Assembly (NCBI GenBank): GCA_003220315.1
Contig: QHSA01000158.1
Location: forward strand, 1 to 47,133
DNA length: 47,133 nucleotides
Source: Candidatus Rokuibacteriota bacterium
GTDB lineage: Bacteria > Methylomirabilota > Methylomirabilia > Rokubacteriales > CSP1-6
Reading direction: 5' to 3'
Translations under genes and position numbers: made by a program
The notes under the pieces: model-generated
The model's database searches: none
What the model was told of the DNA's origin: nothing
What the model saw: the letters and a program-made list of their open reading frames with translations, nothing else
Part shown: positions 9,271-31,008 of the stretch, piece by piece
Layout: each line of letters opens with the position of its first letter
Position numbering within the stretch: the stretch's first letter is position 1

Positions 9271-9314
9271 GTGGTCGTGCGAGCCGCAGCCGCAGGCGAG
9301 GCGAGCCCGTGAAT
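9271..9314 (+). repeat. Dispersed junction repeat, single short copy
   Basis: 44 bp on the plus strand that match the unit at 71-158 except at a few bases: GTGGTCGTGCGAGCCGCAGC through GAGGCGAGCCCGTGAAT. It fills the gap between the M28 stop and the AMP-ligase ribosome-binding site. As elsewhere, a TGA overlaps a GTG (CCGTGAAT). That GTG is in frame with the AMP ligase six codons before the better ATG. Confidence 0.9.
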
Positions 9315-9326
9315 AAGGAGCCAGGG

Positions 9327-10964
9327 ATGGCCGATCAGGAGGTGCACGCGGCGCCGACGCTCACCGAGATGATGCGACGGCGCGCCGCGCTCACGCCCGA
9401 CGCGCCGTACTTCTACCTCTACGGGGACACGATCACGTACGGGCGGCTCTGGGACGTGAGCGGGCGCTACGCCGCCGGCCTCGCCCGCGGCGGCCTCCGC
9501 GCGGGGGACAAGCTCTGCCTCATCTACCCGACGTGCGCCGAGTTCTTCTTCACCTTCTTCGGCGCGCTGCGGATCGGCGTGGTGCCCGTGCCGCTCTACC
9601 CGACGCTCGGCGTCGAGGCGACCGCGCGGATCCTCAACGACTCCGAGACCGGCGCGGTGGCGACGATCGGCTGGTTCCGCAAGGGCGTGGACGAGTCTGC
9701 TGCGCAGGCGCCCGGCGTGCGCGCGGTCCTGGAGCCGTCCGACCTCGACGCCGACGCGGCCGCGCCCGCGTACGCCGAGCCCGACGCGGAGGACCTCGCG
9801 TTCCTCCAGTACACGTCGGGGAGCACGGGGCACCCGCACGGGGTCATGCTCACCCACCGGAACGTCGTCTCGACCATCAAGTTCATGGCCGAGGCCGCCG
9901 GGCTCACCGCCGAGGACCGCGTCGTCTCGTGGCTACCGCTCTACCACGACATGGGGCTCATCGGCTGCGCCTTCACGCCGCCGCTCACGCGCACGCCGCT
10001 CTGGCTCTTGCCCCCGGACCTCCGCAACCCGCGCCAGTGGCTCGAGCTCTGCACCGAGGTGCGCGCCACGTTCACGGTCTCGCCCGATTTCGGCTATCGG
10101 AACTGCCTGCGTCACGTCCGGGACACCGCCGGGCTCGATCTGACGAGCCTCAAGGCCGCGCTCTCCGGCGCCGAGACGGTGCGGCGGTCCACCATCGAGG
10201 CCTTCGAGTCGCGCTTCGGCCTCGAGCGCGTCATCTCCCCCTGCTACGGTCTCGCGGAGGCGACGCTCGCCGTGGCGATCTGGCCGCGCGCCGTGCCGCT
10301 CAGGTTCGATCCGAGCGGGAGGTTCCTCTCGGTCGGCCAGCCCTGCCCCGGCGTCGCGGTGCGGGTCCTCGCCCCCGACGGCGTCGGCGAAGTCCCGCTG
10401 GCGCCCGCCGAGGAGGGCGAGATCTACGTGCAGAGCCCCGGTGTCATGCGCGGCTACTACAACAACGCGGAGGACACGCGAAAGGTGCTCTCGCCGGACG
10501 GCTGGCTCCGGACGGGCGACCTCGGCTTCCTGGACAAGGACGGATTCCTCTACGTGACTGGCCGGCTGAAAGATCTGATCATCCTGGCCGGCGAGAACGT
10601 GCCCCCGGCCGACGTCGAGGAGGTCGTGGACCTCGTCGACGGCGTCCGCTACTCGGCGGCCGTGGGGATCGAGAGCGAGCGGGCCGGGACGCAGCGCCTC
10701 CACGTCGTCGCCGAGGTGCGGAGCGAGAGCGCGTCCCCCGACGAGTACCACGGCCTCGTGCGCGAGATCGTGAGCCGCGTCCACAAGCAGCGCGGCCACC
10801 GGCCCGCGCGCGTCCTGCTCGTGCGTGCGGGCACCGTGCCCAAGACCTCCAGCGGCAAGATCCAGCGGTCGCGACTCGCGCAGATGATCCGGGACGGCGA
10901 GCTCCACGACCGGATCGTGTACGGCACCCCTGAACGCACCGTTCTGAGCCCGCCCCCGAGTTAG
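9327..10964 (+). CDS. Fatty acyl-AMP ligase-like (FAAL-type) adenylate-forming enzyme
   Basis: ANL-superfamily enzyme of 545 residues that would activate a fatty or other carboxylic acid as its acyl-adenylate. The FAAL-like signatures LPLYHDMGLIG (about 203) and GLAEATLA (about 308) are present, and the catalytic lysine motif VPKTSSGKIQR is near 505. The P-loop reads YTSGSTGHPHGVM, with His replacing the usual Lys. The ATG at 9327 has AAGGAG at 9315-9320. An in-frame GTG at 9309 lies in the repeat tail and has no ribosome-binding site. No acyl carrier protein or polyketide synthase is adjacent, so the acceptor is unknown. An acyl-CoA ligase is the alternative. Confidence 0.85.
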   Translation: MADQEVHAAPTLTEMMRRRAALTPDAPYFYLYGDTITYGRLWDVSGRYAAGLARGGLRAGDKLCLIYPTCAEFFFTFFGALRIGVVPVPLYPTLGVEATARILNDSETGAVATIGWFRKGVDESAAQAPGVRAVLEPSDLDADAAAPAYAEPDAEDLAFLQYTSGSTGHPHGVMLTHRNVVSTIKFMAEAAGLTAEDRVVSWLPLYHDMGLIGCAFTPPLTRTPLWLLPPDLRNPRQWLELCTEVRATFTVSPDFGYRNCLRHVRDTAGLDLTSLKAALSGAETVRRSTIEAFESRFGLERVISPCYGLAEATLAVAIWPRAVPLRFDPSGRFLSVGQPCPGVAVRVLAPDGVGEVPLAPAEEGEIYVQSPGVMRGYYNNAEDTRKVLSPDGWLRTGDLGFLDKDGFLYVTGRLKDLIILAGENVPPADVEEVVDLVDGVRYSAAVGIESERAGTQRLHVVAEVRSESASPDEYHGLVREIVSRVHKQRGHRPARVLLVRAGTVPKTSSGKIQRSRLAQMIRDGELHDRIVYGTPERTVLSPPPS

Positions 10965-10976
10965 GGCGGCCGCGCC

Positions 10977-11864
10977 GTGACCATGGAGTTCGGCTGCCAC
11001 CTCCCCGTCTACGGCCCGGCCGCCACGCGCGAGACCCTGCTCGCCTTCGCGCGCCGGATGGAAGCGCTCGGCTACGACTCGCTCTGGGCGAGCGACCACG
11101 TCGTCATCCCCTGGCGAATCGCGTCGAAGTATCCGTACAACGAGACCGGCGACTTTCCGTTGCCGGCGTCCGCCAACTTCCTCGAGCCGCTCACCACGCT
11201 CGCCCTCGTGGCCGGCGCGACGGAGCGGATTCGCCTGGGCACGACGGTGCTGGTGCTCCCGCACCGCCACCCCCTCCTCGCGGCGAAGATGCTCGCGACG
11301 CTCGATCACCTGGCGCCTGGACGCGTCATTCTGGGCGCGGGCGTCGGCTGGATGCGCGAGGAGATCGAGCTCTTCGGCGTGGACTACGCGCGGCGTGGCG
11401 CGTGGAGCGACGAGGCGCTCCGTATCATGCGGGCGTGCTGGCGGGAGGAGCGCCCGAGCTTCCGGGGCGAGTTCGTCAGCTTCGCCCCGGTCGGCTTCGC
11501 GCCGAAGCCTCCGCGCGGAACTATTCCCGTCTGGATCGGCGGTCACACGCCGCGCGCGCTCCGGCGCGTGGCCGAGCTCGGGGACGGCTGGCACGCCGCG
11601 TTCACGAGCGCCGAGAAGATGAAGGGGGGGCTCGCCGCGCTGGCGGCGGCGTGCCGCGCGGCCGGACGCGAGGTGAAGTCCCTCACGCTCAGCGCGCGCC
11701 TGGGCCTGCCCGCCCAGCACGACGTCGGGGCCCTCGTCCGCGAGATCCGCGCGCTGGCCGAGCTCGGTGTGCGTCACCTCGTCCTCGAATCGCGCGTGCG
11801 CGATCTCGCGGACATGACCGAGATCTACGAGCGCTTCACCCGCGACGTCCGCGCGAAGCTCTAG
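10977..11864 (+). CDS. LLM-class (luciferase-like) flavin/F420-dependent oxidoreductase
   Basis: TIM-barrel monooxygenase/reductase family using reduced FMN or F420. The 295 residues show the family pattern: an N-terminal strand FGCHLPVYG, ALGYDSLWASDHVVIP (about 30-46), TERIRLGTTVLVLPHRHP (about 82), LDHLAPGRVILGAGVGW and IPVWIGGHTPRALRRVAELGDGW. This resembles the F420-dependent group, but I see no cofactor-biosynthesis gene here. GTG start at 10977, with ATG 10983 possible, 12 bases after the AMP ligase, so the two are probably co-transcribed. The substrate is unknown. Confidence 0.88.
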   Translation: MTMEFGCHLPVYGPAATRETLLAFARRMEALGYDSLWASDHVVIPWRIASKYPYNETGDFPLPASANFLEPLTTLALVAGATERIRLGTTVLVLPHRHPLLAAKMLATLDHLAPGRVILGAGVGWMREEIELFGVDYARRGAWSDEALRIMRACWREERPSFRGEFVSFAPVGFAPKPPRGTIPVWIGGHTPRALRRVAELGDGWHAAFTSAEKMKGGLAALAAACRAAGREVKSLTLSARLGLPAQHDVGALVREIRALAELGVRHLVLESRVRDLADMTEIYERFTRDVRAKL

Positions 11865-14908: not shown

Positions 14909-15664
14909 CTAGATCATCGTGAGACCGCCAGACACCGAGAGGGTCTGACCGGTGACGAACCCCGCCTCGTCGGAGGCGAGGAAGACCACGGCGGGCGCGA
15001 TGTCCTCGGGCGTCCCGAGCCGGCCCCACGGGATCACGCGCTTGAGGCTCTCGGCCAGCCGCGGGCTCTGCGCGACGAACTCCTGCTGGAACAGCGGCGT
15101 CTCCGACGGGCCCGGGCAGACGCAGTTCACGTTGATCCGGTGGCGCGCCACTTCGCGGGCGATCGTCTTCGTGAACGCGATGATCCCCCCCTTTGCCGCC
15201 GAGTAGACCGCCTCGCCCGTCGAGCCCACGCGGCCCGCGTCGGAGGCGATCGACACGATCTTGCCGTACTCCTGCCGGAGCATGTGGGGCAGCACGGCGT
15301 GGGTGCAGGCGATCGGCCCGCGGAGGTTGAGGGCGAGGATCCGGTCCCAGAACGCGGGCGTCGTCTCCACGAACGGCATCGGCCGGTCCCAGCCGGCGTT
15401 GTTGACGAGGACGTGGACCGTGCCCCAGCGCGCGACGACGCTCGCCACCATGCCGGCGACCGCGGCCGCGTCGGTGATGTCCACGCGCCACGCGGCAGCC
15501 GCGCCGCCGTCCTTCTCGATCGCGCGCGCGACCTCCGCGCCGCCCGCCTCGTTCAGGTCGGCGATCGCGACCCGGGCGCCCTCGCGGGCGAGTGCCTTCG
15601 CGATGGCCCGCCCGATTCCGCTCGCCGCGCCGGTGACGATCGCCACCCGGTCGCGGAGCTTCAC
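14909..15664 (-). CDS. Short-chain dehydrogenase/reductase (FabG/BadH-like)
   Basis: NAD(P)-dependent oxidoreductase of 251 residues. TGAASGIG (11-18) is the nucleotide-binding loop and D36 suggests NAD preference. NNAG (88-91), N113, a serine near 138-141, Y154 and K158 (YSAAK) complete the catalytic set, and the C-terminus is DEAGFVTGQTLSVSGGLTMI. Overall it resembles 2-hydroxycyclohexanecarboxyl-CoA dehydrogenase (BadH) and FabG-like enzymes. An acyl-CoA substrate fits the neighbouring AMP-binding gene 22 bases upstream, but this is inference. GTG start. Confidence 0.88.
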   Translation of the reverse strand: MKLRDRVAIVTGAASGIGRAIAKALAREGARVAIADLNEAGGAEVARAIEKDGGAAAAWRVDITDAAAVAGMVASVVARWGTVHVLVNNAGWDRPMPFVETTPAFWDRILALNLRGPIACTHAVLPHMLRQEYGKIVSIASDAGRVGSTGEAVYSAAKGGIIAFTKTIAREVARHRINVNCVCPGPSETPLFQQEFVAQSPRLAESLKRVIPWGRLGTPEDIAPAVVFLASDEAGFVTGQTLSVSGGLTMI

Positions 15665-15686: not shown

Positions 15687-17210
15687 TCACGCCCCGTGAC
15701 CCCACGTGGCCTTCACGGCCTCCCGGTCCACCGCGCCCTCCGCGGTGCGCGGGAGGGCGTCGGTGAACGCCACCGCGTGGGGCCGCTTGAACCGGGCGAT
15801 CTTCGACGCCACGAAGTCGCTCACCTGCGGGGCGGTGTACCGGCCGGTCTTCACCTCGACCACCGCCTTGATGGCCTCGCCCCACCTGGGGTCCGGGATG
15901 CCGTACACGCACACGCCGCTCACGCCGGGGAGTTGCATGATCACGGTCTCGACCTCCGCCGGGTAGACGTTCTCCCCGCCGGGCTTGATCAGCTCTTTCT
16001 CCGGCTTGCGCTTGACGTAATAGAGGTAGCCGTCGGCGTCGAAGCGCCCCACGTCCCCGGTGTGGTGCCAGCCGTTGCGGAGGGTGTACGCCGTCACGTC
16101 CGGCTGGCCGAAGTAGCCCTGGAACACGAGCGGGCCACGCACGACGATCTCCCCCGGCGTCCCGACGGGCACCTCACGATCGTAATCGTCCACGAGCTTC
16201 ACATCGCACACGGGCACGGGCTTGCCGGCGGCGCCGGGCTTGTCCCGCACGCGCTGCAGGGTGACGAACCCGCTGGTTTCCGACTGTCCGAAGCCGGTCC
16301 AGAACTGCGCCCGGGTCTGTTCGTGCAGGCGTTGGATGGTCTGGGGTGCGTCGAGGCCGGAGACGTGCTTGAGGCTCTCGAGCCGGCTGCCGAGCTTCCC
16401 CGCCGCATCCAGCAGAGTGGTCAGCACGGGGGGAAAGTCCGAGACGTGGGTGATGCCGTGGCGGTCGATCAGCCGCACCGCCTCCTCCGCGTCGAACCGC
16501 GCCACCAGCACGCTGGCAGCGCCGGCGTGCATGTGCGCCAGCGCGCCCCCCAGCGCGGTGATGTGGAACAGCGGCAGCGCCAGCAGATAGCGATCCGCGG
16601 GGGTGTAGCCGATCGAGGCCATGGCCGTGAGGTTTGCCATGATGACGTTCCTGTGAGTGAGCGCCGCGCCGCGCGGGATGACGTCCACTGCCGCCGTCGA
16701 AATGACTGCAAACGGGTCGTCGGGCGACACCTCGGGCGCGGGCGGGACGCTGGCCCGTCGGTACAGCGCGGCGAAGGGCTCGAAGCCTGGCCCTCCGGCC
16801 TCGCCGAACTGGTACCAGTGCGCGACCGCGGGCTTCGCCTCCGGCCAGCCGGCCACCACGGGGAGCGTGGCGGCGTCGACCACCATCATCCGGGGCGCGG
16901 CGCGCTCCACGACGCGCGCCACTTCCTGCGCGGTCAGCCGCCAGTTGACGGGGTAGGCGACGATGCCCTGCCGCGCGCAGGCGCCGTACAGCTCGAGGTA
17001 GGCGGGATCGTTCTGCGCCAGGATGCAGATGCGCTCGCCCTTGCCGATGCCCAGGGCTAGGAGGCCTCCGGCGAGGGCGTCCACCTGGCGCCGAAACTCC
17101 CGGAAGGACAGCTCCCGGTCGCCGTGGAGGATGGCCGGCGCGTCGCCGTACACGAACGCGCCACGGGCGATCATGTCGTAGACCGTGAATCCGTGCACGT
17201 CCATGTTCAT
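15687..17210 (-). CDS. ANL-superfamily AMP-binding protein with degenerate P-loop and no A10 lysine
   Basis: A 507-residue protein aligned along its whole length with acyl-CoA ligases: LSFREFRRQVDALAGGL, GFGQSETSG, GWHHTGDVGRFDADGYLYY and GGENVYPAEVE. Two key sites are altered. The P-loop, normally TSGTTGxPKG, reads ISTAAVDVIPRGAALTH (about 170-186). The C-terminal catalytic-lysine motif, normally LPKTxxGK, reads LPRTAEGAVDRE. Adenylation may therefore be lost or slow, while the CoA-thioester half-reaction or a scaffold role could remain. ATG at 17210 abuts the repeat at 17211-17270 and no ribosome-binding site is seen; ATG 17204 is an alternative. The SDR gene follows. Confidence 0.85.
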   Translation of the reverse strand: MNMDVHGFTVYDMIARGAFVYGDAPAILHGDRELSFREFRRQVDALAGGLLALGIGKGERICILAQNDPAYLELYGACARQGIVAYPVNWRLTAQEVARVVERAAPRMMVVDAATLPVVAGWPEAKPAVAHWYQFGEAGGPGFEPFAALYRRASVPPAPEVSPDDPFAVISTAAVDVIPRGAALTHRNVIMANLTAMASIGYTPADRYLLALPLFHITALGGALAHMHAGAASVLVARFDAEEAVRLIDRHGITHVSDFPPVLTTLLDAAGKLGSRLESLKHVSGLDAPQTIQRLHEQTRAQFWTGFGQSETSGFVTLQRVRDKPGAAGKPVPVCDVKLVDDYDREVPVGTPGEIVVRGPLVFQGYFGQPDVTAYTLRNGWHHTGDVGRFDADGYLYYVKRKPEKELIKPGGENVYPAEVETVIMQLPGVSGVCVYGIPDPRWGEAIKAVVEVKTGRYTAPQVSDFVASKIARFKRPHAVAFTDALPRTAEGAVDREAVKATWGHGA

Positions 17211-17295: not shown

Positions 17296-17751
17296 TCACT
17301 GCCCGACGATCTCGCCCTTCATCGGGCCCAGCAGACCGAGCAGCTCGCTCTTCTCCCTCGCGCCGACACCGTGCTTGTCGAGCGCTTTGGTCAGATTCTC
17401 GACGGTCGCGTTCCACTCCACCTCGCTGACGTTCATGCCCTGGTGCGTCGTCTTCATGTCGCGTCCGAGGTACGAGCACGGCCCTCCCGCCGCGTCGCAG
17501 ATCTGATCCGAGAGGTTCGACTTCAGCCTGAACACCGCGGGAGGCTGCATGCCTTGAAAGCGGGCGTTCACGCGGGGGTCGGCGACCATGTTCGCGACGA
17601 AGTCGTCGACGACCAGCGCGATCCCATCACGGCCGCCGAGCCGCTTGTAGAGCGAGGGCGGTTGCTCCCCCATCGTGGCGCAAGCGCCGACGCCCATCAC
17701 CAGCAGCAGCAGGAGTGCGACGCGTCCTCCGACCGTCCGTGTCCGTCTCAT
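17296..17751 (-). CDS. Lipoprotein group 1 truncated haemoglobin
   Basis: Haem-binding 2-on-2 globin of 151 residues with an export signal. The lipobox VGAC puts a lipidated Cys at 24, so it should be membrane-tethered outside the cytoplasm. The globin domain begins SLYKRLGGRDGI. The proximal histidine is H103 (DMKTTHQGM). A Cys pair (C85, C92 in QICDAAGGPC), common in exported members, could form a disulphide. The usual Tyr B10 appears to be Val (FVANMVADP), which would change ligand chemistry. The gene starts 14 bases after the livF stop with a good GGAGG, so it is probably the last gene of the transporter operon. Confidence 0.9.
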   Translation of the reverse strand: MRRTRTVGGRVALLLLLVMGVGACATMGEQPPSLYKRLGGRDGIALVVDDFVANMVADPRVNARFQGMQPPAVFRLKSNLSDQICDAAGGPCSYLGRDMKTTHQGMNVSEVEWNATVENLTKALDKHGVGAREKSELLGLLGPMKGEIVGQ

Positions 17752-17765
17752 CGAGTGCGATCCTC

Positions 17766-18560
17766 CTACGAGAGCCAGCGTTTGCGGCGTTTGTAGTGCT
17801 TGACGTCGCGGTACGATTTCCTGGCGCCGACCTCGGTCAGCCCCAGGTAAAACTCCTTGATGTCCGCGTTCTCCCTGAGCGCGGCGGCGGGCCCGTCGAG
17901 CACGAGGCGCCCGTTCTCCATGACGTAGCCGTGCTCGGCGATCTGCAGCGCGAGCGCCGCGTTCTGCTCGACCAGGAGCACCGTCAGTTTCTCCCGGCGG
18001 TTCATTTCCCGGACGATGGCGAAGATCTCCTCGACGAGCATCGGCGCGAGCCCGAGCGAGGGCTCGTCGAGCAGCATGACGTGCGGCTTGGCCATGAGCG
18101 CGCGCCCGATGACGAGCATCTGCTGCTCGCCGCCGGAGAGGTATCCCGCCTGGACCGAGCGTCGCTCACGGAGCCGCGGGAAGTACTCGTACACGCGCAC
18201 GATCGCGTCCTGCACCAGTCGCCGGTCTGGCTGGACGTGCGCCCCGGCGATCAGGTTCTCCTCGGTGGTGAGGTGCTCGAAGACGCGACGCCCTTCGAAC
18301 ACCTGGACGATCCCGCGCCGCACGATCTCGTGGGGCGCCAGCCGGTCGATCCGCTCCCCCTTGAACTCGATCGAGCCCTTCGTGACCTCGCCGCGCTCGG
18401 CCCGCAGGAGCCCCGAGATCGCCTTCAGCGTTGTGCTCTTCCCGGCGCCGTTGGCGCCGAGCAGGGTCGTGATCCCGCCCTCGCGAACCGAGAGCGACAC
18501 CCCCTTCAGCACGAGGATCACGTCGTCGTAGATGACCTCGATGTTGTTGAGGCTCAGCAT
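17766..18560 (-). CDS. livF: Liv-type ABC transporter ATP-binding protein LivF (module 2)
   Basis: Cytoplasmic ATPase subunit of a branched-chain-amino-acid-type (HAAT) importer. Walker A GANGAGKST (about 35), signature LSGGEQQM (about 143), Walker B VMLLDEPSLGLAP and the LivF phrase GYVMENGRLVLDG are present. At 264 residues it exceeds the usual ~235 by a basic C-terminal tail, KSYRDVKHYKRRKRWLS, shared with the module-1 LivF but absent from the third LivF at 42510-43214. It follows two tandem binding-protein genes. The imported substrate is probably an organic acid, given the acyl-CoA synthetases in the operon. Confidence 0.93.
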   Translation of the reverse strand: MLSLNNIEVIYDDVILVLKGVSLSVREGGITTLLGANGAGKSTTLKAISGLLRAERGEVTKGSIEFKGERIDRLAPHEIVRRGIVQVFEGRRVFEHLTTEENLIAGAHVQPDRRLVQDAIVRVYEYFPRLRERRSVQAGYLSGGEQQMLVIGRALMAKPHVMLLDEPSLGLAPMLVEEIFAIVREMNRREKLTVLLVEQNAALALQIAEHGYVMENGRLVLDGPAAALRENADIKEFYLGLTEVGARKSYRDVKHYKRRKRWLS

Positions 18561-18579
18561 GTGCAGAAGCCCGGGTCGG

Positions 18580-19818
18580 CTACTTCGCCTCCTTGATGGC
18601 CTTGGCCACCACCTCGGGATAGGCCTTGAACCAGTCCGTGACCCTCGCCCACTTGCCGCCCCTCACCTGCCAGACCTGCACCAGGCCTCCGCCTTCGTGG
18701 TCCGTGGCCGTGACCTCGAGCGGCGGCACCAGGCCTCCCAGGGTGAAGCCTTTGATCTGCTCGAATCCCTTCTTCACGTCCTCGCCGGTGATCTTGCCGT
18801 CCGGCCGCGCCTTCAAGGCGTTCCGGATGGCCTCCACGTGGAGCGCGGCGATGAGGACACCCCGGTTGTAGTACACCGTCGACGCCATCTCCTTCGGGGC
18901 TTCCTTGCCTTGCTTCTTGTACATCTCGCGGATCTCGTTGATGACCGGGAAGTCCTGCCCCACGCCGGCAAACTGCAGCCCGTAATAGCCGTCGGCGAGG
19001 GCGTAGCCGCCGGCCGCCTCGATGTCGGCCTCGGCGGCACCCCAGACGAACGAGACGACCTTTCGGAGCGGGAAGCCGACCCGCTTGAGCTCCTTGATCG
19101 ACACCGACGGTGAGCGCCCGAAGAGGTGGGCGATCAGGAAGTCGGCGCGATAACGCTGGGCGATGTCGAGCACCTGAGCGCCCATCTCCACGCCGGGCGG
19201 TGGCACGGCGAAGGTCTTGAGCTGGAAGCCTTCCTTGACCGAGAGGTCTTCGAGGATCGGGATCGGCTCACGGCCCGCCGGGTTGTCGTAGAAGAGGAAG
19301 CCGATCTTCTTGCCCTTGAGGCTGCCGCCGAGCTGGTCCTTGACGAACTTCACGGCCGCAGTGGCCTGAGACCAGTACGTCGCGGCGATCGGAAAGATGT
19401 ATGGGTACCGGCTGCCGTCGGCGGCGGCGGCCTTCCCGAAGCCGGGTGAGGTGCCGGGGATCCGGTCCTCCGTCAGCTTCTGGGTCAGCGCGTAGATCTG
19501 CGGGGTGCCGTAGACGCCGATGACGACCGCCCCCGCCTTCTTGAAGCGCTCGTACGACTCCATGGCCGCCGGCACCTTGTACTCGTGATCGACTTCGTCG
19601 ACCCGGAGCCTGTGCCCCATCACGCCGCCATTGGCGTTCACGAGGTTGACGTAGTCGTGGTACCCGGGACAGATCACGACGCCGACCGTCTGGGTCGCCC
19701 CCGTCCGGTCGCACTGGAAGCCGAGGACGATGTCGTGGCTCGCCTGGACGGATCCCACACCCGTGAGTGTCAGGGCGAGGACCACCACCGTCATGAAGAT
19801 CCCCACATGTCGCTGCAT
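18580..19818 (-). CDS. Liv-type ABC transporter substrate-binding protein, second tandem copy (module 2)
   Basis: Periplasmic type-I binding protein of 412 residues (Peripla_BP_6-like) with a signal peptide ending VGSVQA before SHDIVLGFQCDRTG. Cysteines in FQCDRTG and VICPGYHDY may pair. The ATG at 19818 has GAGGAGG at good spacing; two more in-frame ATGs upstream are less well placed. By eye about three-quarters of residues match the adjacent copy at 19871-21118 over nearly the full length, so the pair arose by tandem duplication. Divergence is concentrated at the N-terminus and around the GYALADGYYGLQ region. The ligand is unknown. Confidence 0.93.
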   Translation of the reverse strand: MQRHVGIFMTVVVLALTLTGVGSVQASHDIVLGFQCDRTGATQTVGVVICPGYHDYVNLVNANGGVMGHRLRVDEVDHEYKVPAAMESYERFKKAGAVVIGVYGTPQIYALTQKLTEDRIPGTSPGFGKAAAADGSRYPYIFPIAATYWSQATAAVKFVKDQLGGSLKGKKIGFLFYDNPAGREPIPILEDLSVKEGFQLKTFAVPPPGVEMGAQVLDIAQRYRADFLIAHLFGRSPSVSIKELKRVGFPLRKVVSFVWGAAEADIEAAGGYALADGYYGLQFAGVGQDFPVINEIREMYKKQGKEAPKEMASTVYYNRGVLIAALHVEAIRNALKARPDGKITGEDVKKGFEQIKGFTLGGLVPPLEVTATDHEGGGLVQVWQVRGGKWARVTDWFKAYPEVVAKAIKEAK

Positions 19819-19870
19819 GGCCATCCTCCTCAAGCGTCGACGCGATTGGGGCCGCCGAGCGTGCCGGCGG

Positions 19871-21118
19871 CTACTTCTTCGCGCTCGCCGCCTTGATGTG
19901 CTTGCCGACCACATCGTTGTAGGCACTGAACCAGTCGGTCACCTTCGCGAACTGCCCGCCCTTGACCTGATAGATCTGGACCAGCCCGCCGCCCTCGTGG
20001 TCATTCGGCGTGATCTTGAGCGGCGGCACGAGTCCGCCCAGCGTGAAGCTCGCGATCTTCTCAAACCCTTTCTTCACGTCCTCGCCGGTGATCCTCCCGT
20101 CGGGCTTGGCCTTGAGCGCGTTCCGCACCGCCTCGACCTGGACGGCCGCCCACACGACGCCGCGGTTGTAGTAGACCGTCGACGCCATCTCCTTCGGCGC
20201 CGGCTTGCCCTCCTTCTTGTACATCTCACGGATCTCGTTCAGGACGGGGTAGTCCGTCCCCACGCCTGCGAACTGCATGACGTGGTAGCCCTCGGCCGCG
20301 GACCAGCCGCCCGCGGCCTCGACATCCGCCTCGGCCGAGCCCCACACGAACGACACGACCTTGCGGAGCGGATACCCCACGCGCTTGAACTCCTTGATCG
20401 ACACCGACGGCGACCGGCCGAACAGGTGGGCGATGACGAAGTCCGCGTGGTAACGCTGGGCGATGTCCAGCACCTGGGCGCCCATCTCCACGCCGGGCGG
20501 CGGGACGGCGAACGTCTTGAGCTGGAACCCCTCCTGCGCCGACAGATCTTCGATCACCGGAATGGGCTCGCGGCCCGCCGGGTTGTCGTAGAAGATGTAG
20601 GCGATTTTCTTGCCCTTGAGGCCGCCGAGTTGCTTCCGCGCGAAGTCCACGGCCGCCGCGCCCTGCGACCAGTAGGTGGCCGCGATCGGGAAGATGTACG
20701 GGTAGCGGGTCCCGTCCGTGGCGTCGCCGCGACCGAAGCCGGGCGTCGTGCCCGGGATCCGATCCTCCGTCAGCCGCTGCGTCAAGGCGTAGACGATCGG
20801 CGTGCCGTAGACGGCGATCACCACGGCGCCCTCCTTCTTGTAGCGCTCGTACGCCTCCACCGCGGGCGGCACCTTGTACTCGTGATCGATCTCGATCAGC
20901 CTGATCTTGTGCCCCTCGACGCCGCCCTTGGCGTTGACGAGGCGGACGTAGTCCTGAGCGCCCGGGCACATGTTGACGCCGACGGTCTGCGTCGCCCCGG
21001 TCCGGTCGCACAGGAAGCCCATGACGATCTCGTGACTCGCCGTCGCGGAGGCCACGCTCGCGAGCGTCGTCCAGACGGCCACCGCCGCTCCGATCAACCG
21101 CGGGAAGCTCCGTCGCAT
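19871..21118 (-). CDS. Liv-type ABC transporter substrate-binding protein, first tandem copy (module 2)
   Basis: Exported binding protein of 415 residues. The start ATG 21118 has AAGGAG seven bases upstream, and a signal peptide ends near SVASATA. The mature part begins SHEIVMGFLCDRTG, with a second Cys in NMCPGAQDY. Shared blocks with the neighbour include PYIFPIAATYWSQ, FYDNPAGREPIP, FAVPPPGVEMGAQVLDIAQ and APKEMASTVYYNRGV. Two binding proteins with one LivHMGF set suggest a widened ligand range. The gene lies 25 bases after livM. Confidence 0.93.
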   Translation of the reverse strand: MRRSFPRLIGAAVAVWTTLASVASATASHEIVMGFLCDRTGATQTVGVNMCPGAQDYVRLVNAKGGVEGHKIRLIEIDHEYKVPPAVEAYERYKKEGAVVIAVYGTPIVYALTQRLTEDRIPGTTPGFGRGDATDGTRYPYIFPIAATYWSQGAAAVDFARKQLGGLKGKKIAYIFYDNPAGREPIPVIEDLSAQEGFQLKTFAVPPPGVEMGAQVLDIAQRYHADFVIAHLFGRSPSVSIKEFKRVGYPLRKVVSFVWGSAEADVEAAGGWSAAEGYHVMQFAGVGTDYPVLNEIREMYKKEGKPAPKEMASTVYYNRGVVWAAVQVEAVRNALKAKPDGRITGEDVKKGFEKIASFTLGGLVPPLKITPNDHEGGGLVQIYQVKGGQFAKVTDWFSAYNDVVGKHIKAASAKK

Positions 21119-21143
21119 CGCTTGTCTCCTTTTACCCACGCGC

Positions 21144-22211
21144 TCAGTACGCGAAGGGCCAGACACGGAAGTAGTTCCGGATGTTCCGCCAGAGACGGTT
21201 GAGCCCCTCGGGCTCGACGACCAGAAAGAAGATGATCAGCGCTCCGAAGAGGATGAGGCGGAGGTTCGGGATGATGTTCAGGACCGACGCCTGGGAGAAC
21301 ACGAGGCCGCCGAGTGCCTCCATCGCGTATCGGATGGCGATCGGCAGCAGCGTCACGAAGATCGCGCCGAAGACCGAGCCGAGCACCGAGCCCAGGCCGC
21401 CGATGATGATCATCGCCAGGTAGTCGATCGAGACCGTGATCTGGAACTGCTCGTAGTTCGCGATCCCGAGGTAGTACGTGTAGAGGACGCCGGTCACGCC
21501 CGCGTAGAACGACGAGATCGCGAACGCCAGGAGCTTGTAGCGGAAGATGTTGATCCCGATGATCTCGGCGGCGATGTCGTGGTCGCGGATCGCGATGAAC
21601 GCCCGGCCGATCCGGCTCCGCATCAGGTTCAGGGTCCCGACGAGTGCCGCCACGACGAAGAACATCAGGAAGAAGTACATCTCGCGCTGCGACGCGATCG
21701 TCAGGCCGAGGAACGACGGTCGCGGCATCTCGATCGACGCCTGGACGCCGCCCGAGATCCACGTGACGTGGTTGATGGTCCACTCGATGATGAGCTGGCC
21801 CGCGAGCGTGGCGATCGCCAGGTAGAGCCCCTTGATCCGCAGCGAGGGGATGCCGACGATCGCGCCGATGATGGCGGCCATGACGCCGCCGAGCGGCAGC
21901 GCGAGCCAGAACGGCGCGCCGAGACGGACCGCGAAGTTCGCGGCCGTGTAGGCCCCGACCGACATGAAGGCCCCGTGGCCGATGGAGATCTGGCCCGTGT
22001 ACCCGACGAGGATGTTGAGCCCGAGCGCGCCGACGACGGCGATCGCGACCAGGTTGACGATCGACAGGTAGTACTCGTGAACGCTGAACGGCAGCACGAG
22101 GAGAAAGAGGACGGCAAGCGCCGCGACCGTCCAGCGGGCGATGGGCAAGGGATACAGGGCCATGTCGGCCTCGTACGTCGTCTTGAGCACCCCGCACTCG
22201 CGGTGAATCAT
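21144..22211 (-). CDS. livM: Liv-type ABC transporter permease LivM (module 2)
   Basis: Inner-membrane permease of 355 residues with about ten hydrophobic helices and the family blocks GLNILVGYTGQISIGHGAFM, GIPSLRIKGLYLAIATLA, IRDHDIAAEIIGI and IIGGLGSVLGSVFGAIFV. I place the start at ATG 22211 (MIHRECGVLKTTYEADMALYP) because the module-1 LivM begins the same way (MIYREAGQFKTSYASD). The frame is open further upstream, but that part is the inverted-repeat spacer. It pairs with the LivH at 22405-23304. Confidence 0.93.
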   Translation of the reverse strand: MIHRECGVLKTTYEADMALYPLPIARWTVAALAVLFLLVLPFSVHEYYLSIVNLVAIAVVGALGLNILVGYTGQISIGHGAFMSVGAYTAANFAVRLGAPFWLALPLGGVMAAIIGAIVGIPSLRIKGLYLAIATLAGQLIIEWTINHVTWISGGVQASIEMPRPSFLGLTIASQREMYFFLMFFVVAALVGTLNLMRSRIGRAFIAIRDHDIAAEIIGINIFRYKLLAFAISSFYAGVTGVLYTYYLGIANYEQFQITVSIDYLAMIIIGGLGSVLGSVFGAIFVTLLPIAIRYAMEALGGLVFSQASVLNIIPNLRLILFGALIIFFLVVEPEGLNRLWRNIRNYFRVWPFAY

Positions 22212-22230
22212 GCGCGACTCCACGGGCTCG

Positions 22231-22386
22231 CCACGCGGGGGCCCTGGAGGGTGGGGGGTGAGTCGACCACGCGGCACGCGCGCGCATGGCCCGTCGCGGC
22301 TGGGCTCCACCCGGGCGCGCGAGGTCCGCAGGCGACGCGGCGGGAACGGGTCTCCCTACCCCCCACCCTCCAGGGCCCCCGCGTGG
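22231..22386. repeat. Perfect 29-bp terminal inverted repeat in the livH-livM spacer
   Basis: Arms at 22231-22259 (CCACGCGGGGGCCCTGGAGG and onward) and 22358-22386 are exact reverse complements and enclose 98 bases. TCG flanks both ends (22228-22230 and 22387-22389) and could be a 3-bp target duplication. The element fills most of the 193-bp gap between livH and livM and encodes nothing recognisable. In the transcript it would form a very stable stem. A MITE-like insertion or an mRNA-processing structure are the main options. Confidence 0.92.
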
Positions 22387-22404
22387 TCGAGGCCGTGAAC
22401 TGGC

Positions 22405-23304
22405 TCATACGCGTTCGATGATCTTCTTGCCGAAGATGCCGTAGGGCCGAATCATCAGCGCCAGGATCATCAGGACGTACGGCGCGAAGTCCTTCGTCCC
22501 GCCGCCGACGTACGGATCAACGTAGCCCGCGGCCACGTTCTCCACGACGCCGACGATCAGCCCACCGAGGATCGCCCCCGGGATCGAGTCGAGCCCGCCC
22601 AGGATCACGACCGGGAAGACCTTGAAGCCCACGAGCGAGAGATGCACATCGACGCCGAGCATGCTGCCCCAGATCACCCCGCCCAGGGCCGAGACGACCC
22701 CCGTCATCGCCCACGCGAGCGCGAAGTACCGCTCGACGTTGATCCCCATCGCCATCGCCACTTGCTGGCTGTCGGCGACCGCGCGCATCGCGATCCCCTT
22801 GCGCGACTTCAGGAAGAACCAGCCGAAGACCCCGAGGAAGACGAGGCTGACCGACGCGCCGAGGAGCTGGATCGGCGGGATGAACAGGGGGCCGACGATG
22901 AACGGCTCGTCGCTGATCGGAAGCGCCAGCGGCTTCGTCTCCGCCCCCCACGTGAGCGGGCCCACGCCGCGCAGGATGGCGGCGAGACCGATCGTCGCCA
23001 TGACGACGGCGATGATGGGCCGCCCGATGAGGCGCCGAAGCATCACGCGTTCGAGCCCGAATCCGAACCCGACCATCCCCAGGAGGCCCGCGGACACCGC
23101 GAGCCAGAGCGGGGCGCCGTAGGCGACCAGGCAGACGGCGACGACGAAGCCCGCGATCATGACGAACTCACCCTGGGCGAAGTTAATCGCGTCGGTCGCC
23201 TTGTAGACGAGGACGAACCCGAGCGCGATCAGCGAGTACATGAGCCCGATGAGGATCCCGTTGGACATCAGGAGCACGAAGAACCGCCCGTCGACCTCAA
23301 GCAT
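22405..23304 (-). CDS. livH: Liv-type ABC transporter permease LivH (module 2)
   Basis: Permease of 299 residues. It carries the LivH hallmarks GLMYSLIALGFVLVYKATD, INFAQGEFVMIAGF, VERVMLRRLIGRP-like helix starts and FKVFPVVILGGLDSIPGA, ending MIRPYGIFGKKIIERV. The start ATG 23304 overlaps the end of the acyl-CoA synthetase by eight bases (ATGCTTGA), implying translational coupling. The inverted repeat at 22231-22386 follows its stop. Confidence 0.93.
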   Translation of the reverse strand: MLEVDGRFFVLLMSNGILIGLMYSLIALGFVLVYKATDAINFAQGEFVMIAGFVVAVCLVAYGAPLWLAVSAGLLGMVGFGFGLERVMLRRLIGRPIIAVVMATIGLAAILRGVGPLTWGAETKPLALPISDEPFIVGPLFIPPIQLLGASVSLVFLGVFGWFFLKSRKGIAMRAVADSQQVAMAMGINVERYFALAWAMTGVVSALGGVIWGSMLGVDVHLSLVGFKVFPVVILGGLDSIPGAILGGLIVGVVENVAAGYVDPYVGGGTKDFAPYVLMILALMIRPYGIFGKKIIERV

Positions 23305-25213
23305 GCGCGACCGCCCCTTCGACGTCCTCCACGCGTACGCGCGACCGGAGCGCGGCCTGCCGGCCATCCTCGTAGGTGATCATGGTCGTCAGCTCGACCG
23401 CGTCCCCGCCCGAGTAGAAGGCGTCGACGACGGCCGCGTACTTCTCCGCGACGTACCGCCGGCGGACCTTTCGGGTGCGGGTGACTTCGGCGTCGTCGGC
23501 GTCGAGGTCTTTGGTGAGCAGCAGGAACCGCCGGACTCTGGTCGCGTCCGGCAGCGTGGCGTTGCACTTACGGATCTCCTCCCGGATCAGCGCGCGCACC
23601 TCGGGCTTCTGGGAGAGGTCCGTGTAGCTCGTGTACGGGAGCCCGCGCCGCTCCGCCCAGTTGCCCACGGTGTTCGGGTCGATCGCGATCATCGCCGCGA
23701 CGAACGCGCGCTCACCGCCGAACGCGACCGCCTCGCGGACGTAGGGGCTGAACTTGAGCTTGTTCTCGATGAACTGGGGAGCGAACGGCGTCCCGTCGGC
23801 CAGCGCGCCGACGTCCTTGGCCCGGTCGATGATGACGAGGTGCCCGCGCGGGTCGACGAAGCCGGCGTCGCCCGTGTGGAACCAACCCTCCCCGTCGATG
23901 ACCTCGCGGGTGGCCGCCTCGTTCTTGAGATAACCCTTGAAGATCCCGGCGCCCCGCACGAGCACTTCGCCGCGCTCGGCGATCCGGACGTCGATGCCCG
24001 GGCACGGGCGCCCGGCCGTCGTCGGGTTGGCCTCGGTGCTCGGCTGGAGCGAGACGAGACCGGTCGTCTCGGTGGAGCCGTACACCTGCTTGAGATTCAC
24101 GCCGATCGATCGAAAGAACCGGAACGTGTCGGGCCCGAGCGGCGCGCCGCCCGTCAGCGCCCAGCGCGCGCGCCGCAGGCCGAGCTGGTCGCGGACCGGC
24201 CCGTAGACGAAGACCTCGCCGAGGGCCACGGCCAGACGCAGTCCGAGCGGCACGGGCTTGCCGTCGCCGCGGAGGATCTCGGCGCGCTCGGCCGCGGCCC
24301 GGAAGGCCTCGAAGACCCGGCGCTTGAGCCACGGGGCATCGGCCGCCTTGACCTGCACCCCGGTCAGGATGTTTTCCCAGATGCGGGGCGGCGCGAGCAC
24401 GAGTGTCGGTCCGAGCTCACGCAGGTCGCGCTGGACCGTCTCGGGGCTCTCGGGGCAGTTGCACGCGAACCCGACGTAGAGGCTCATGATGAGCGTGTAG
24501 AACGCGTCGCCCACCCACGCCATCGGCAGATACGCGAGGTAGTCGTCGTCGACGCGAAACTCCTCGGCCCCTGCGGCGATGCGGGCCGTCTCGACCGCGT
24601 TGCCGTGGGTGAGCATCGCGCCCTTCGGGTCTCCCGTCGTCCCCGAGGTGTAGCAGATGAACGCGACATCGTCGGGTCGACCCCGCTCGACTTCGGCCTC
24701 GAAGCGGCCCGGGTGCTCCGCGCCGAACTTCCGGCCGAGCTCCTGGACCTCCTCGAACGACTTGAGCCAGTCGTAGCGGTAGTGCAGCATGCCGCGCGGG
24801 TCGTCGTAGACGACGAGGCGAAGCCCGGACAGCTCGTCCCGGAGCGCCAGGATTTTGTCCACCTGCTCCTGGTCCTCGGCGACGATCACGGCGCACTCCG
24901 CGTGGGTCCAGACGAAAGCGAGCTCCTTGGCGATCGAGTCCTGGTAGACCGGCACGGAGACGCCGCCGAGCGCCTGCGCGGCGACCTGGGCCCAGTAGAG
25001 GCGCGGCCGGTTGTCGCCGATCACCGAGAGGCGCTCGCCCCGCGCGAAGCCGAGCGCCGCGAGCCCGAGCGCGAAGGCCCGCACTTCGGCGTGGTACTGT
25101 CCCCACGTCCATGTCTGCCAGATCCCACGGTCCTTCTCGCGGATGGCCGGGCGCCCGCGCAGGTCGCGGGCGTTCTTCCCCAGGAGGCGCGGGAGCGTCA
25201 CCAGCTCAGCCAC
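23297..25213 (-). CDS. Long-chain-type acyl-CoA synthetase (AMP-forming), module 2
   Basis: ANL enzyme of 638 residues with the architecture of long-chain fatty-acid CoA ligases (FadD15-like). The P-loop YTSGTTGDPKGAMLTH is near 186, followed by YGSTETTG (about 373), GWFHTGDAGFVDPRGHL and a C-terminal VTRTRKVRRRYVAEKY. It should convert an imported carboxylic acid to its CoA thioester; chain length is not readable. I chose GTG 25213, with GGAGGGG upstream; it overlaps the livG stop by eight bases (GTGGCTGA). An in-frame GTG at 25246 is possible. The gene sits between livG and livH of one transporter. Confidence 0.92.
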   Translation of the reverse strand: MAELVTLPRLLGKNARDLRGRPAIREKDRGIWQTWTWGQYHAEVRAFALGLAALGFARGERLSVIGDNRPRLYWAQVAAQALGGVSVPVYQDSIAKELAFVWTHAECAVIVAEDQEQVDKILALRDELSGLRLVVYDDPRGMLHYRYDWLKSFEEVQELGRKFGAEHPGRFEAEVERGRPDDVAFICYTSGTTGDPKGAMLTHGNAVETARIAAGAEEFRVDDDYLAYLPMAWVGDAFYTLIMSLYVGFACNCPESPETVQRDLRELGPTLVLAPPRIWENILTGVQVKAADAPWLKRRVFEAFRAAAERAEILRGDGKPVPLGLRLAVALGEVFVYGPVRDQLGLRRARWALTGGAPLGPDTFRFFRSIGVNLKQVYGSTETTGLVSLQPSTEANPTTAGRPCPGIDVRIAERGEVLVRGAGIFKGYLKNEAATREVIDGEGWFHTGDAGFVDPRGHLVIIDRAKDVGALADGTPFAPQFIENKLKFSPYVREAVAFGGERAFVAAMIAIDPNTVGNWAERRGLPYTSYTDLSQKPEVRALIREEIRKCNATLPDATRVRRFLLLTKDLDADDAEVTRTRKVRRRYVAEKYAAVVDAFYSGGDAVELTTMITYEDGRQAALRSRVRVEDVEGAVAHA

Positions 25214-26000
25214 GTTCCCCTCCGTCGGGCGAGCCCTTGGTCTCACCGAGGTACGCCTTGATCACCCGCGGATCGGCCCGCACGTCGTCCGGCGTGCCGT
25301 CGGCGATCTTCGCGCCCATGTCGAGGACCGCGATGCGGTCCGAGATGTCCATGACCACGCCCATGTCGTGCTCGATGAGGACGATGGTCGTCCCCCACTC
25401 CTCGTTGACGTCGAGGATGAAGCGCGCCATGTCCTCTTTCTCCTCGTGGTTGCAGCCACCCATCGGCTCGTCGAGCAGGAGCACTCTCGGGTCGAGCGCG
25501 AGCGCCCGGCCGAGCTCGACGCGCTTCTGCAGCCCGTACGCGAGCGAGCCCGTCGGTCGGCGGCGGAGGTCCTGGATCTTGAGGAAGTCGATGATGTCCT
25601 CGACACGCCTGCGGTGGGCGACCTCCTCCTTCTGCGCCAGCCCCCAGTAGACGAACGACTTGAGCACGCCGGCCTTCATGTGGACGTGGCGGCCCAGCAT
25701 CAGGTTGTCGAGCACGGTCATGCCCTTGAACAGGGCGATGTTCTGGAAGGTGCGCGCGAAGCCGAGCGCCGCGACGCGGCTCGCCGCGAAGCTCGAGATG
25801 TCCGTGCCCTCGACGACGATCCGGCCCGCGTCGGGGTGGTAGAAGCCGCTGATCATGTTGAGCACGGTCGTCTTGCCGGCGCCGTTGGGCCCGATCACCG
25901 AGAAGATCTCGCCCTTCTGGACATCGAGGCTCACCTTCGTCACGGCCTGGACCCCGCCGAACGCCTTCGAGACCCCGCGAATCTCGACGAGCGCGCTCAT
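25206..26000 (-). CDS. livG: Liv-type ABC transporter ATP-binding protein LivG (module 2)
   Basis: ATPase subunit of 264 residues. Walker A GPNGAGKTTVLNMISG, the LivG phrase ARTFQNIALFKGMTVLDNLM, signature region SLAYGLQKRVELGRAL, Walker B VLLLDEPMGG followed by HEEKEDM, H-loop IVLIEHDMGVVMDISD, and the LivG-type C-terminal extension ending VIKAYLGE are all present. It begins 34 bases after module-1 livF, with the hairpin at 26007-26028 between them, and overlaps the synthetase GTG by eight bases. Confidence 0.94.
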   Translation of the reverse strand: MSALVEIRGVSKAFGGVQAVTKVSLDVQKGEIFSVIGPNGAGKTTVLNMISGFYHPDAGRIVVEGTDISSFAASRVAALGFARTFQNIALFKGMTVLDNLMLGRHVHMKAGVLKSFVYWGLAQKEEVAHRRRVEDIIDFLKIQDLRRRPTGSLAYGLQKRVELGRALALDPRVLLLDEPMGGCNHEEKEDMARFILDVNEEWGTTIVLIEHDMGVVMDISDRIAVLDMGAKIADGTPDDVRADPRVIKAYLGETKGSPDGGERG

Positions 26001-26034: not shown

Positions 26035-26859
26035 TCATGACAGCCACCGCTTGCGCCGGCGGTAATGCTTCACGTCGCGATAGCTCTTCCGCTGCCCGAC
26101 GCCGGAGAGCCCGAGGTAGAACTCCTTGATATCCTCGTTCTCGCCGATCGTCCGGGCGTCGCCGTCGAGGACGATGCGCCCGTTCTCCATCACGTACCCG
26201 TACTGCGCGAACCGGAGCGCCATCGTGGCGTTCTGCTCGGCGAGCAGCACGGCCACCCCCGCCTCGCGGTTCATCCGGCTCACGATCTCGAAGATCTCGT
26301 GCACCAGCATCGGCGCGAGCCCCATCGAGGGCTCGTCGAGCAGCATGAGCCTGGGCCGCGCCATGAGCGCGCGGCCGATCGCCACCATTTGCTGCTCGCC
26401 GCCCGAGACGTAGCCGGCGCGGACCAGGCGTCGCTCCGCCAGCCGGGGAAAGTAGCGATACACGAGCGCGAGGTCCTGCTTCGCCGCGTGGCCGTTCTTC
26501 CGCGTGTAGCCGCCGGTGAGGAGATTCTCCTCCACGGTCAGGTGCTCGAAGACGTGCCGGCCCTCCATGACCTGGACGATTCCTCGCGTGACGACCTCGG
26601 CCGGGTCCTTCCGATGGATCGGCTGCCCCTCCCACTCGATCGTGCCCTTGGTGACGTCGCCGCGCTCGGTCCGGAGCAGCCCGGAGATCGCCTTCAGAGT
26701 CGTGCTCTTGCCGGCGCCGTTGGCCCCGAGGAGGGCGACGATGCCCCCCGCGGGGACCCGCAGCGAGACTCCCTTCAACACGAGGATCACGTGGTCGTAG
26801 ATCACCTCGATGTTGTTCACCGACAGCAGGGGCCGGGGGTCGTCGCGCACGGCGCTCAC
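26035..26859 (-). CDS. livF: Liv-type ABC transporter ATP-binding protein LivF (module 1)
   Basis: ATPase subunit of 274 residues. Walker A GANGAGKSTTLKAISG, RGIVQVMEGRHVFEHLTVEE, signature VSGGEQQMVAIGRAL, Walker B LMLLDEPSMGLAP. It ends in a basic tail, KSYRDVKHYRRRKRWLS, nearly identical to the module-2 LivF. The start is a GTG at 26859; a later in-frame GTG near LLSVNNIEVIYD would match its paralogue's first residues better. It follows the binding-protein stop closely. Confidence 0.93.
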   Translation of the reverse strand: MSAVRDDPRPLLSVNNIEVIYDHVILVLKGVSLRVPAGGIVALLGANGAGKSTTLKAISGLLRTERGDVTKGTIEWEGQPIHRKDPAEVVTRGIVQVMEGRHVFEHLTVEENLLTGGYTRKNGHAAKQDLALVYRYFPRLAERRLVRAGYVSGGEQQMVAIGRALMARPRLMLLDEPSMGLAPMLVHEIFEIVSRMNREAGVAVLLAEQNATMALRFAQYGYVMENGRIVLDGDARTIGENEDIKEFYLGLSGVGQRKSYRDVKHYRRRKRWLS

Positions 26860-26865
26860 GCTCGC

Positions 26866-28194: not shown

Positions 28195-28211
28195 GGGAAT
28201 CCTCCTCGCAC

Positions 28212-29288: not shown

Positions 29289-29291
29289 GCC

Positions 29292-30230: not shown

Positions 30231-31008
30231 GGCTCACCCCGAGGTAGGCGTCGAGGACGGCCGAGTCCTTGCGGACCTCGGCGGGCGGGCCGTCGGCGAT
30301 CTTGCGCCCGTAGTCGAGGACCACGACGCGGTCCGAGATGTCCATGACCACGCCCATGTCGTGCTCGATGAGCGCGATCGTCGTGCCGAACTCCGCGTTG
30401 ACGTCGAGGATGAAGCGGCACATGTCTTCCTTCTCCTCGACGTTCATGCCGGCCATCGGCTCGTCGAGCAGGAGGAGCTGGGGCTCGGCGGCGAGCGCGC
30501 GCCCGAGCTCCACGCGCTTCTGCAGCCCGTAGGGCAATCGGCCGGCCGGGGTCTTGCGGATCGCCTGGATCTCGAGGAAGTCGATGATCCGCTCGACGAA
30601 CGCGCGGTGCTCGATCTCCTGACGGCGGGCCGGGCCCCAGTAGAGCGCCTCCAGCAGGAAGCTTCCCCGCGTCTTGAGGAGCCGCCCCGTCATGAGGTTG
30701 TCGAGCACGCTCATGCCTTTGAACAGGGCCACGTTTTGGAAGGTTCGGGCGATGCCGAGGACGGCGACGTCGGGCGGGCTGAGGTTCGTCCGGTCCTTGC
30801 CGTCGAAGACGATTCGGCCCGCGTAGGGGTGGTAGAAGCCGCTGATCACGTTGAGCAGGGTCGTCTTGCCGGCGCCGTTGGGACCGATGATGGCCAGGAT
30901 CGAGCCGCGGCGGATCTCGACGCTCACCTGGCTCAGCGCGACGAGCGCGCCGAAGCGGACGCTGACCCCCTGCACCTCGAGGAGCGGCCCCGGGGGGGCT
31001 CCGGTCAC
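30223..31008 (-). CDS. livG: Liv-type ABC transporter ATP-binding protein LivG (module 1)
   Basis: ATPase subunit of 261 residues. Walker A GPNGAGKTTLLNVISG, ARTFQNVALFKGMSVLDNLM, signature RLPYGLQKRVELGRAL, Walker B LLLLDEPMAGMNVEEKEDM, IALIEHDMGVVMDISD. The MNVEEKEDM stretch after Walker B is shared in outline with the module-2 LivG (NHEEKEDM). The GTG start overlaps the synthetase TGA by four bases (GTGA). Unlike module 2, the synthetase lies upstream of livG here. Confidence 0.94.
   Translation of the reverse strand: MTGAPPGPLLEVQGVSVRFGALVALSQVSVEIRRGSILAIIGPNGAGKTTLLNVISGFYHPYAGRIVFDGKDRTNLSPPDVAVLGIARTFQNVALFKGMSVLDNLMTGRLLKTRGSFLLEALYWGPARRQEIEHRAFVERIIDFLEIQAIRKTPAGRLPYGLQKRVELGRALAAEPQLLLLDEPMAGMNVEEKEDMCRFILDVNAEFGTTIALIEHDMGVVMDISDRVVVLDYGRKIADGPPAEVRKDSAVLDAYLGVSHD

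Follow-up and report, generated by a model that had tools for sequence, protein, structure and literature searches.

A widespread clade of acyl-CoA ligase-like proteins without the adenylation lysine that probably carry out only the thioester-forming step

The acyl-AMP of AMP-forming acyl-CoA ligation is reactive and is normally not released. The described system closest to the locus studied here is that of PtmA2, reportedly a non-adenylating acyl-CoA ligase of platensimycin biosynthesis with PtmA1 as its partner, in work attributed to Wang et al. from 2018. AuaE, also relevant to the comparison, is an ANL homologue. According to a review, PtmA1 and PtmA2 appear to run the two half-reactions separately (PMC6594144), and AuaE is described as an anthraniloyl-CoA:ACP acyltransferase that accepts anthraniloyl-AMP too (PMC10295502). 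Published work on the residues concerned states that luciferase and PrpE mutated at the A10 lysine no longer adenylate, while step two is hardly affected (PMC11255334), that in CBL this lysine rotates into solvent in the thioester conformation, and that mutation of CBL P-loop residues, aligned here to positions 174, 175 and 180, hinders activity (PMC6122825). Asparagine was not accepted by a nonribosomal peptide synthetase domain without the lysine, module 3 of CysK (PMC7966384). PMC12543098 (transposon data on acid catabolism), PMC12016498, PMC11619455 and PMC6640162 served as background only.

The window, i.e. the whole stretch of 47,133 nucleotides that was analysed, belongs to a Rokubacterial assembly of 4.26 Mb in 301 contigs. 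Its minus strand encodes an AMP-binding protein, hereafter the query, with the following features:

15687..17210, minus strand: AMP-binding protein of 507 aa without the adenylation lysine (the query), its open reading frame running from 17210 to 15687
16653..16700, minus strand: A3/P-loop STAAVDVIPRGAALTH, residues 171-186, replacing YTSGTTGxPKG
15948..16013, minus strand: A8 hinge and thioester loop KRKPEKELIKPGGENVYPAEVE, residues 400-421
15720..15755, minus strand: A10 motif LPRTAEGAVDRE, residues 486-497, with Ala493 where the adenylation Lys is expected

The plus-strand frame across this region is interrupted by a stop. Pfam placed the protein in the ANL superfamily, with PF00501 (227.5 bits) and PF13193 (64.3 bits) both above their cut-offs. 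A preliminary description of this DNA had reported an Ala in place of the A10 Lys and a rewritten P-loop, and both changes were confirmed. The codon of Ala493 is GCG (15734-15732), so that the A10 Lys of two-step AMP-forming acyl-CoA ligases is missing, and the P-loop core reads STAAVDVIPRG, which departs from their [ST]SG[ST]TGxPKG pattern. The query consequently shows the PtmA2-type combination of a replaced A10 lysine with an altered P-loop. It retains the nucleotide-pocket motifs FGQSE and HTGD and the thioester-step loop KELIKPGGENVYPAEVE, and its A8 hinge carries a two-residue insertion after the hinge Arg and the invariant Lys409. An AlphaFold2 model had a mean pLDDT of 92.7; averaged over ten-residue blocks, confidence was lowest in the P-loop (67), in the hinge and A8 loop (74 and 76) and at the two ends (76 and 77). 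Moreover, the gene is under purifying selection, with dN/dS values of 0.23-0.29 against four Rokubacterial orthologues and 0.37 against L062. The earlier statement that the fold is otherwise intact, and that this is not simple decay, is supported by both Pfam domains, the model confidence and these dN/dS values. Among the best 25 of the 101-105 matching NCBIfam models, no curated acyl-CoA ligase cut-off was reached by the query or by three other clade members (see below), the best model for all four being PRK06187.1 with 375-392 bits versus a cut-off of 476.

Homologues with the same double change, which the preliminary description had proposed to collect, proved to form a clade. Genome contigs were searched with confirmation by tblastn, which gave 436 related loci, the best 80 of which were kept, and a plasmid search added a clade member in Polaromonas JS666. 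With the query and the solved protein 3IVR counted, the clade comprises 113 distinct proteins from eight phylum-level groups; membership was defined by a score of 300 bits or more against the query (the next lower matches, at 253 bits, being ordinary ligases) and not by motif, identical sequences and matches with alignments shorter than 300 residues were removed, and A10 is absent in 2/113. By record titles, its members come from Rokubacteria, Tectomicrobia/Entotheonella, SAR324, Desulfobacterota-type and other delta-proteobacteria, Acidobacteriota, Chloroflexi, Nitrospinota and Proteobacteria. Genes of this type were found in 30 of the 57 genomes of the window's family (query genome included), in at least 31 of 247 genomes of the phylum of Desulfocicer (centre genome included, six candidates scored per genome) and in at least one of 398 genomes of the phylum of Rhodoferax, this one being the centre genome itself (three candidates scored per genome).

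Sequence comparison within this set revealed that the A10 site is neither Lys nor Arg in 109 of the 111 readable clade members, where it is occupied by S (31), A (24), E (24), G (10), L (8), T (5), N (3), I (2), V (1) or M (1). The remaining two, with Lys (L120) and Arg (L165), both carry the altered P-loop. Among 26 ordinary ligases, the A10 Lys was present in 24/24 readable sequences, two being not readable. This difference (Lys in 1/111 versus 24/24) is far beyond chance, with a Fisher p of 1e-25 that is nominal because the rows are related. With an entropy of 2.75 bits the site varies more than 85% of sites do, right beside a near-fixed Asp495 (107/111) and a fixed Arg496, which indicates that the constraint on the lysine is gone and that no fixed substitute has replaced it. 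In the P-loop, A173 and A174 were found in 113/113 members, V175 in 109/113 and R180 in 112/113, the position of R180 being Lys in 26/26 ordinary ligases. The parts expected to serve the thioester step are kept, an 88-row clade alignment showing no variation in the A8 loop GGENVYPxEVE, Lys405, Lys409 or the hinge Arg401. His382 and Gln309 are likewise invariant there and occur in 0/25 and 1/26 ordinary ligases, respectively. Lys409 is present in 112/112 clade members versus 7/26 ordinary ligases, and the distance from the hinge Arg to the A8 glycines is two residues longer in 112/112 clade members versus 0/26 ordinary ligases.

In a quick IQ-TREE analysis of 139 rows with the motif columns kept, the 113 clade proteins fell on one side of a branch with SH-aLRT 100. 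L120 and L165 were nested inside the clade, so that their Lys and Arg are most simply explained as later changes. A second tree, from which the P-loop and A10 columns were removed, placed PtmA2 as the sister of the clade (SH-aLRT 99; the clade itself 98). Common descent of the clade and PtmA2 to the exclusion of ordinary ligases was found in this one tree, which was built by the quick method from 58 rows, made up of 38 of the 113 clade members, 19 ordinary ligases and PtmA2 (nine long ordinary sequences were omitted), and includes a single PtmA2 row with a long end branch (1.77) and a thin outgroup. A single-sequence search of the PDB with the query returned 3IVR first (E 1.2e-126), and a search with a profile of 87 clade members returned 3IVR (E 4.5e-205) followed by PtmA2 (5upq, E 1.3e-107) and FadD5 (E 1.4e-104).

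The query gene follows a Liv-type transporter operon, which stands upstream of it. All genes are on one strand, in the order LivG, F3 ligase, LivH, LivM, two LivK, LivF, truncated globin, query and SDR:

25206..26000, minus strand: LivG-type ABC ATPase
23297..25246, minus strand: F3, a 649-aa long-chain-type ligase with an ordinary P-loop (TSGTTGDPKG) and an A10 Lys (TRTRKVRR)
22405..23367, minus strand: LivH-type permease, PF02653
21144..22310, minus strand: LivM-type permease, PF02653
19871..21166, minus strand: second LivK-type substrate-binding protein, start codon unsure, overlapping its neighbour
18580..19926, minus strand: LivK-type substrate-binding protein, PF13458
17766..18560, minus strand: LivF-type ABC ATPase
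17296..17751, minus strand: truncated-globin-like protein, PF01152, between livF and the query gene
14909..15664, minus strand: SDR oxidoreductase, best NCBIfam match BadH, below its cut-off, starting 22 bases downstream of the query gene

Two tandem Liv-type ABC operons are present in the window on the minus strand (26035-32951 and 17766-26000), each with a 648-649-aa ligase between LivG and LivH; the second such ligase, F3b (31005-32951, minus strand), is 54% identical to F3. Elsewhere in the window, the plus strand encodes another AMP-binding protein (9309-11864) with an intact A10 (SSGKIQR) and no recognised C-terminal Pfam domain, adjoined by a luciferase-like monooxygenase; both families also stand side by side in several other Rokubacterial contigs, L042, L055 and L070 among them. 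A vanadium-chloroperoxidase/PAP2-like protein is encoded at 36917-38413 on the minus strand.

Part of this neighbourhood recurs across the clade. An F3-type ligase together with a LivH or LivM permease was found in 24/80 clade loci versus 0/15 background ligase loci, the background consisting of 15 ligase regions of a single genome, that of the window, some of them short and with their own ligase above the score threshold in 12/15. The 24 loci divide into 10/23 Rokubacterial loci, many of whose contigs are short, and 14/57 others (nominal p=0.026 for the latter), several being on short contigs. Another ANL gene was present in 13/23 Rokubacterial and 20/57 other loci versus 1/15 in the background (nominal p=0.026 for 20/57); L069 was left out of this count, its extra gene being a split piece of the query-type gene itself. 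The order F3-LivH-LivM-LivK-LivF, one further gene and then the query-type gene recurs in the delta-proteobacterial loci L088, L114 and L115, and is cut by the contig end in L113. In these four loci the further gene belongs to one family, a universal-stress protein as read by Pfam on L115, which stands at the place of the truncated globin. A truncated-globin match was detected in 19/23 Rokubacterial loci and 0/57 other clade loci. The Liv and long-chain-ligase context suggests an imported acid as substrate.

The preliminary description had also paired the gene with the SDR. The SDR frame does stand 22 bases downstream, whereas conservation of the pair was rejected, SDR matches above 80 bits being found in 13/80 clade loci versus 3/15 background ligase loci. 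More informative than the SDR is the Liv-type operon with its further ligase.

A different setting was found on plasmid 2 of Polaromonas sp. JS666 (L183:383-30000), where the query-type gene is located within a beta-oxidation-like cluster that also encodes MaoC, a 'cyclohexanecarboxylate-CoA ligase', two PaaI thioesterases, an HMG-CoA lyase and carboxylases, with two biotin-carboxylase genes. This content is suggestive of branched or isoprenoid acid degradation. Clusters partly similar to it were observed in L106 and L110. In a Desulfobacteraceae metagenome-assembled genome (L102:1195-9509), the query-type gene comes after a row of three genes for ordinary ligases and one of an ADP-forming-type acyl-CoA ligase family (its Pfam assignment read on L087).

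If the query protein does not make acyl-AMP, another ANL enzyme would supply it, and F3 is a possible candidate. F3-type ligases were detected in 55/57 genomes of the window's family (E<=1e-100) versus 30/57 for the query type, and in 129/247 genomes of the phylum of Desulfocicer (E<=1e-80) versus at least 31/247, with different queries and cut-offs. Close F3 orthologues do not track the query type: it was present in 19/31 genomes with a close F3 orthologue (>=74%) versus 11/26 without one (p=0.19), or in 19/33 versus 11/24 when two partial pieces were counted as F3 orthologues (p=0.43). The A10 Lys was present in 27/27 readable F3s, and their P-loops (26 readable) were of the types TTGxPKG (19), TTAKPKL (5) and TTGLPKA (2). 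The A8 loop of F3 reads DGTPF, departing from GGKN; that of F3b, which does not adjoin the query gene, reads DGTLF, and those of other Liv-associated ligases read DGHRY, NGYRF and KGEMF. Eukaryotic long-chain ligases have an A8 loop similar to that of F3. The idea that F3 is an obligate, adenylation-only partner, a mirror image of the query, was rejected on the grounds that F3b and eukaryotic long-chain ligases have a comparable loop, that F3-type ligases are commoner than the query type and that their P-loops are not uniform.

The predicted conformation was compared with solved structures. By VIA-align, the AlphaFold2 model of the query was 3.8-4.5 Å from 5bsr, 5x8f and 3cw9 (thioester state) and from 5ups_A (PtmA2), and 10-11 Å from the adenylation-state entries 3cw8, 1t5d and 5bur; by Foldseek, it was 11.7-11.8 Å from the PtmA2 entries 5upq and 5upt. 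The thioester state is given in the title of 3cw9 only, and the states of 5bsr, 5x8f, 3cw8, 1t5d and 5bur are presumed, in part from their ligands. A control, the ordinary ligase L135 (10-row alignment), was also modelled near the thioester state, at 1.7 Å from 5x8f and 2.2 Å from 5bst. The thioester-like model was consequently dropped as evidence for a thioester-only role. The looser fit of the query model compared to the control, with n=1 each, may reflect the longer hinge.

We infer that the query is probably, at roughly 60% (0.62), a non-adenylating, thioester-only acyl-CoA ligase that uses acyl-AMP from another ANL enzyme. This reading, drawn from sequence and analogy, is based on the loss of both adenylation determinants across the clade, the conservation of the thioester-step motif and the report that the sister PtmA2 is non-adenylating. 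Against it stand the distance of PtmA2, which lacks the hinge insertion and His382, the occurrence of F3-type ligases independently of the query type, and the single Lys and single Arg at A10 within the clade. Having lost the A10 Lys, which orients the carboxylate and ATP, and the pyrophosphate-holding residues of the P-loop, the protein would make no acyl-AMP; it would take up a ready-made acyl-adenylate or, in reverse, acyl-CoA and AMP. Its domains would adopt the thioester-forming orientation, in which Lys409 of A8 would be in the active site, and CoA or another thiol would receive the acyl group. A second ANL enzyme in the same cell would supply the acyl-AMP, F3 of the adjoining Liv-type operon being the candidate at this locus. 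The central guess of the preliminary description, that only the thioester step is performed, is probably right on the same grounds, and its other option, binding without catalysis, stays as a rival.

The main rival, which we consider unlikely, is that the protein is an acyl-thioester exchanger like AuaE, moving acyl groups between CoA and some other thiol, such as that of a carrier protein, starting from acyl-CoA or acyl-AMP and without ATP. The transfer of anthraniloyl from CoA to ACP by AuaE offers a precedent, and such an exchange would use the half of the active site that is retained here; against it, no carrier-protein domain was detected among the representative neighbours of clade loci scanned with Pfam. 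An improbable reading is that of a non-catalytic binder of acyl-AMP or acyl-CoA, a pseudoenzyme whose role would be to sense or hold what the neighbouring ligase makes. The loss of both adenylation elements and the presence of a transporter and another ligase next to the gene in part of the loci would fit such a role, but the A8 thioester loop and the hinge rank with the best-conserved regions of the clade, more than binding alone seems to need, and the sister PtmA2 is reported as an enzyme in the review cited above.

We regard as still more improbable a complete ligase with a moved lysine, in which Lys409 of A8, standing in for the A10 lysine in the thioester orientation, would serve both steps in one domain orientation. 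Lys409 presumably matches K434 of GrsA, counting back from the A8 glutamate. This K434 nearly superimposes on the A10 lysine K517 between two conformations, as described in PMC11253843, and the invariance of Lys409 and of the two-residue hinge insertion (112/112 each) also favours such a shift. However, the binding site of the departing phosphates, the P-loop, is rewritten too, PtmA2 has a Lys at the same place and is yet reported as non-adenylating, and the A8 Lys is also present in 7/26 ordinary ligases. Finally, a decaying gene or a sequencing error at both sites, the latter named in the preliminary description as fatal to its proposal, can be dismissed given the same double change in 113 distinct proteins from many independent assemblies, the dN/dS values indicating purifying selection and an open frame of normal length.

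As to the wider meaning, we tentatively propose, with somewhat less than even confidence, that a split ligase reaction is an old and common layout of environmental catabolism in which this clade runs the thioester step only, its longer hinge favouring one domain orientation. Under this proposal acyl-AMP (or acyl-CoA and AMP) would be made elsewhere in the cell, and the layout would extend across Rokubacteria, Tectomicrobia, SAR324, sulfate reducers, Acidobacteria, Chloroflexi, Nitrospinota and Proteobacteria. If acyl-AMP is handled in trans by a widespread and apparently catabolic clade, the two-step ligation of textbooks has another common layout, and acid activation would not be the function of many environmental genes annotated as 'AMP-binding protein' or 'long-chain-fatty-acid--CoA ligase'. 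Among the papers listed in searches of an open-licence library we found no account of the size, hinge insertion or catabolic setting of the clade, and no report of activity for 3IVR or any other member. As a solved member (3IVR) and a sister reported as non-adenylating are at hand, the question of a split reaction is directly testable outside antibiotic biosynthesis.

Compared with known systems, ordinary AMP-forming ligases such as FadD13, FadD5 and feruloyl-CoA synthetase (8wev) share with the query the fold, the domain make-up and the nucleotide-pocket motifs; unlike the query, FadD5 and 8wev have P-loops of the TSGTTGxPKG type and the A10 Lys, and the hinge of ordinary ligases is two residues shorter than that of the clade in 26/26 compared. 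AuaE resembles the role proposed here in that it transfers an acyl group after the action of another ligase (PMC10295502), and differs in acting on an acyl carrier protein. The nearest solved protein, 3IVR, a 'putative long-chain-fatty-acid CoA ligase' from Rhodopseudomonas palustris CGA009, is itself a clade member, 42% identical to the query, and shares with it the double change and the hinge insertion; its model lacks the C-terminal domain (393-394 residues). PtmA2 (PDB 5upq, 5ups, 5upt and 5e7q) is more distant, at 30-35% identity. Like the clade, it has a P-loop in which TAA is kept (TAAMSGRQCG), an A10 with Ala for Lys in a G-A-x-D context (SGARDYD) and a Lys in A8 (MLKSAAENIFPAEVE; MLKSAAEN). 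Unlike the clade, it lacks the two-residue hinge insertion and His382, and has Thr for the hinge Arg and AA for the A8 GG. Its context is an antibiotic pathway, whereas clade members are found in transporter and beta-oxidation neighbourhoods. Non-adenylating ligases are thus a kind already known since PtmA2, and the wider finding here is the clade.
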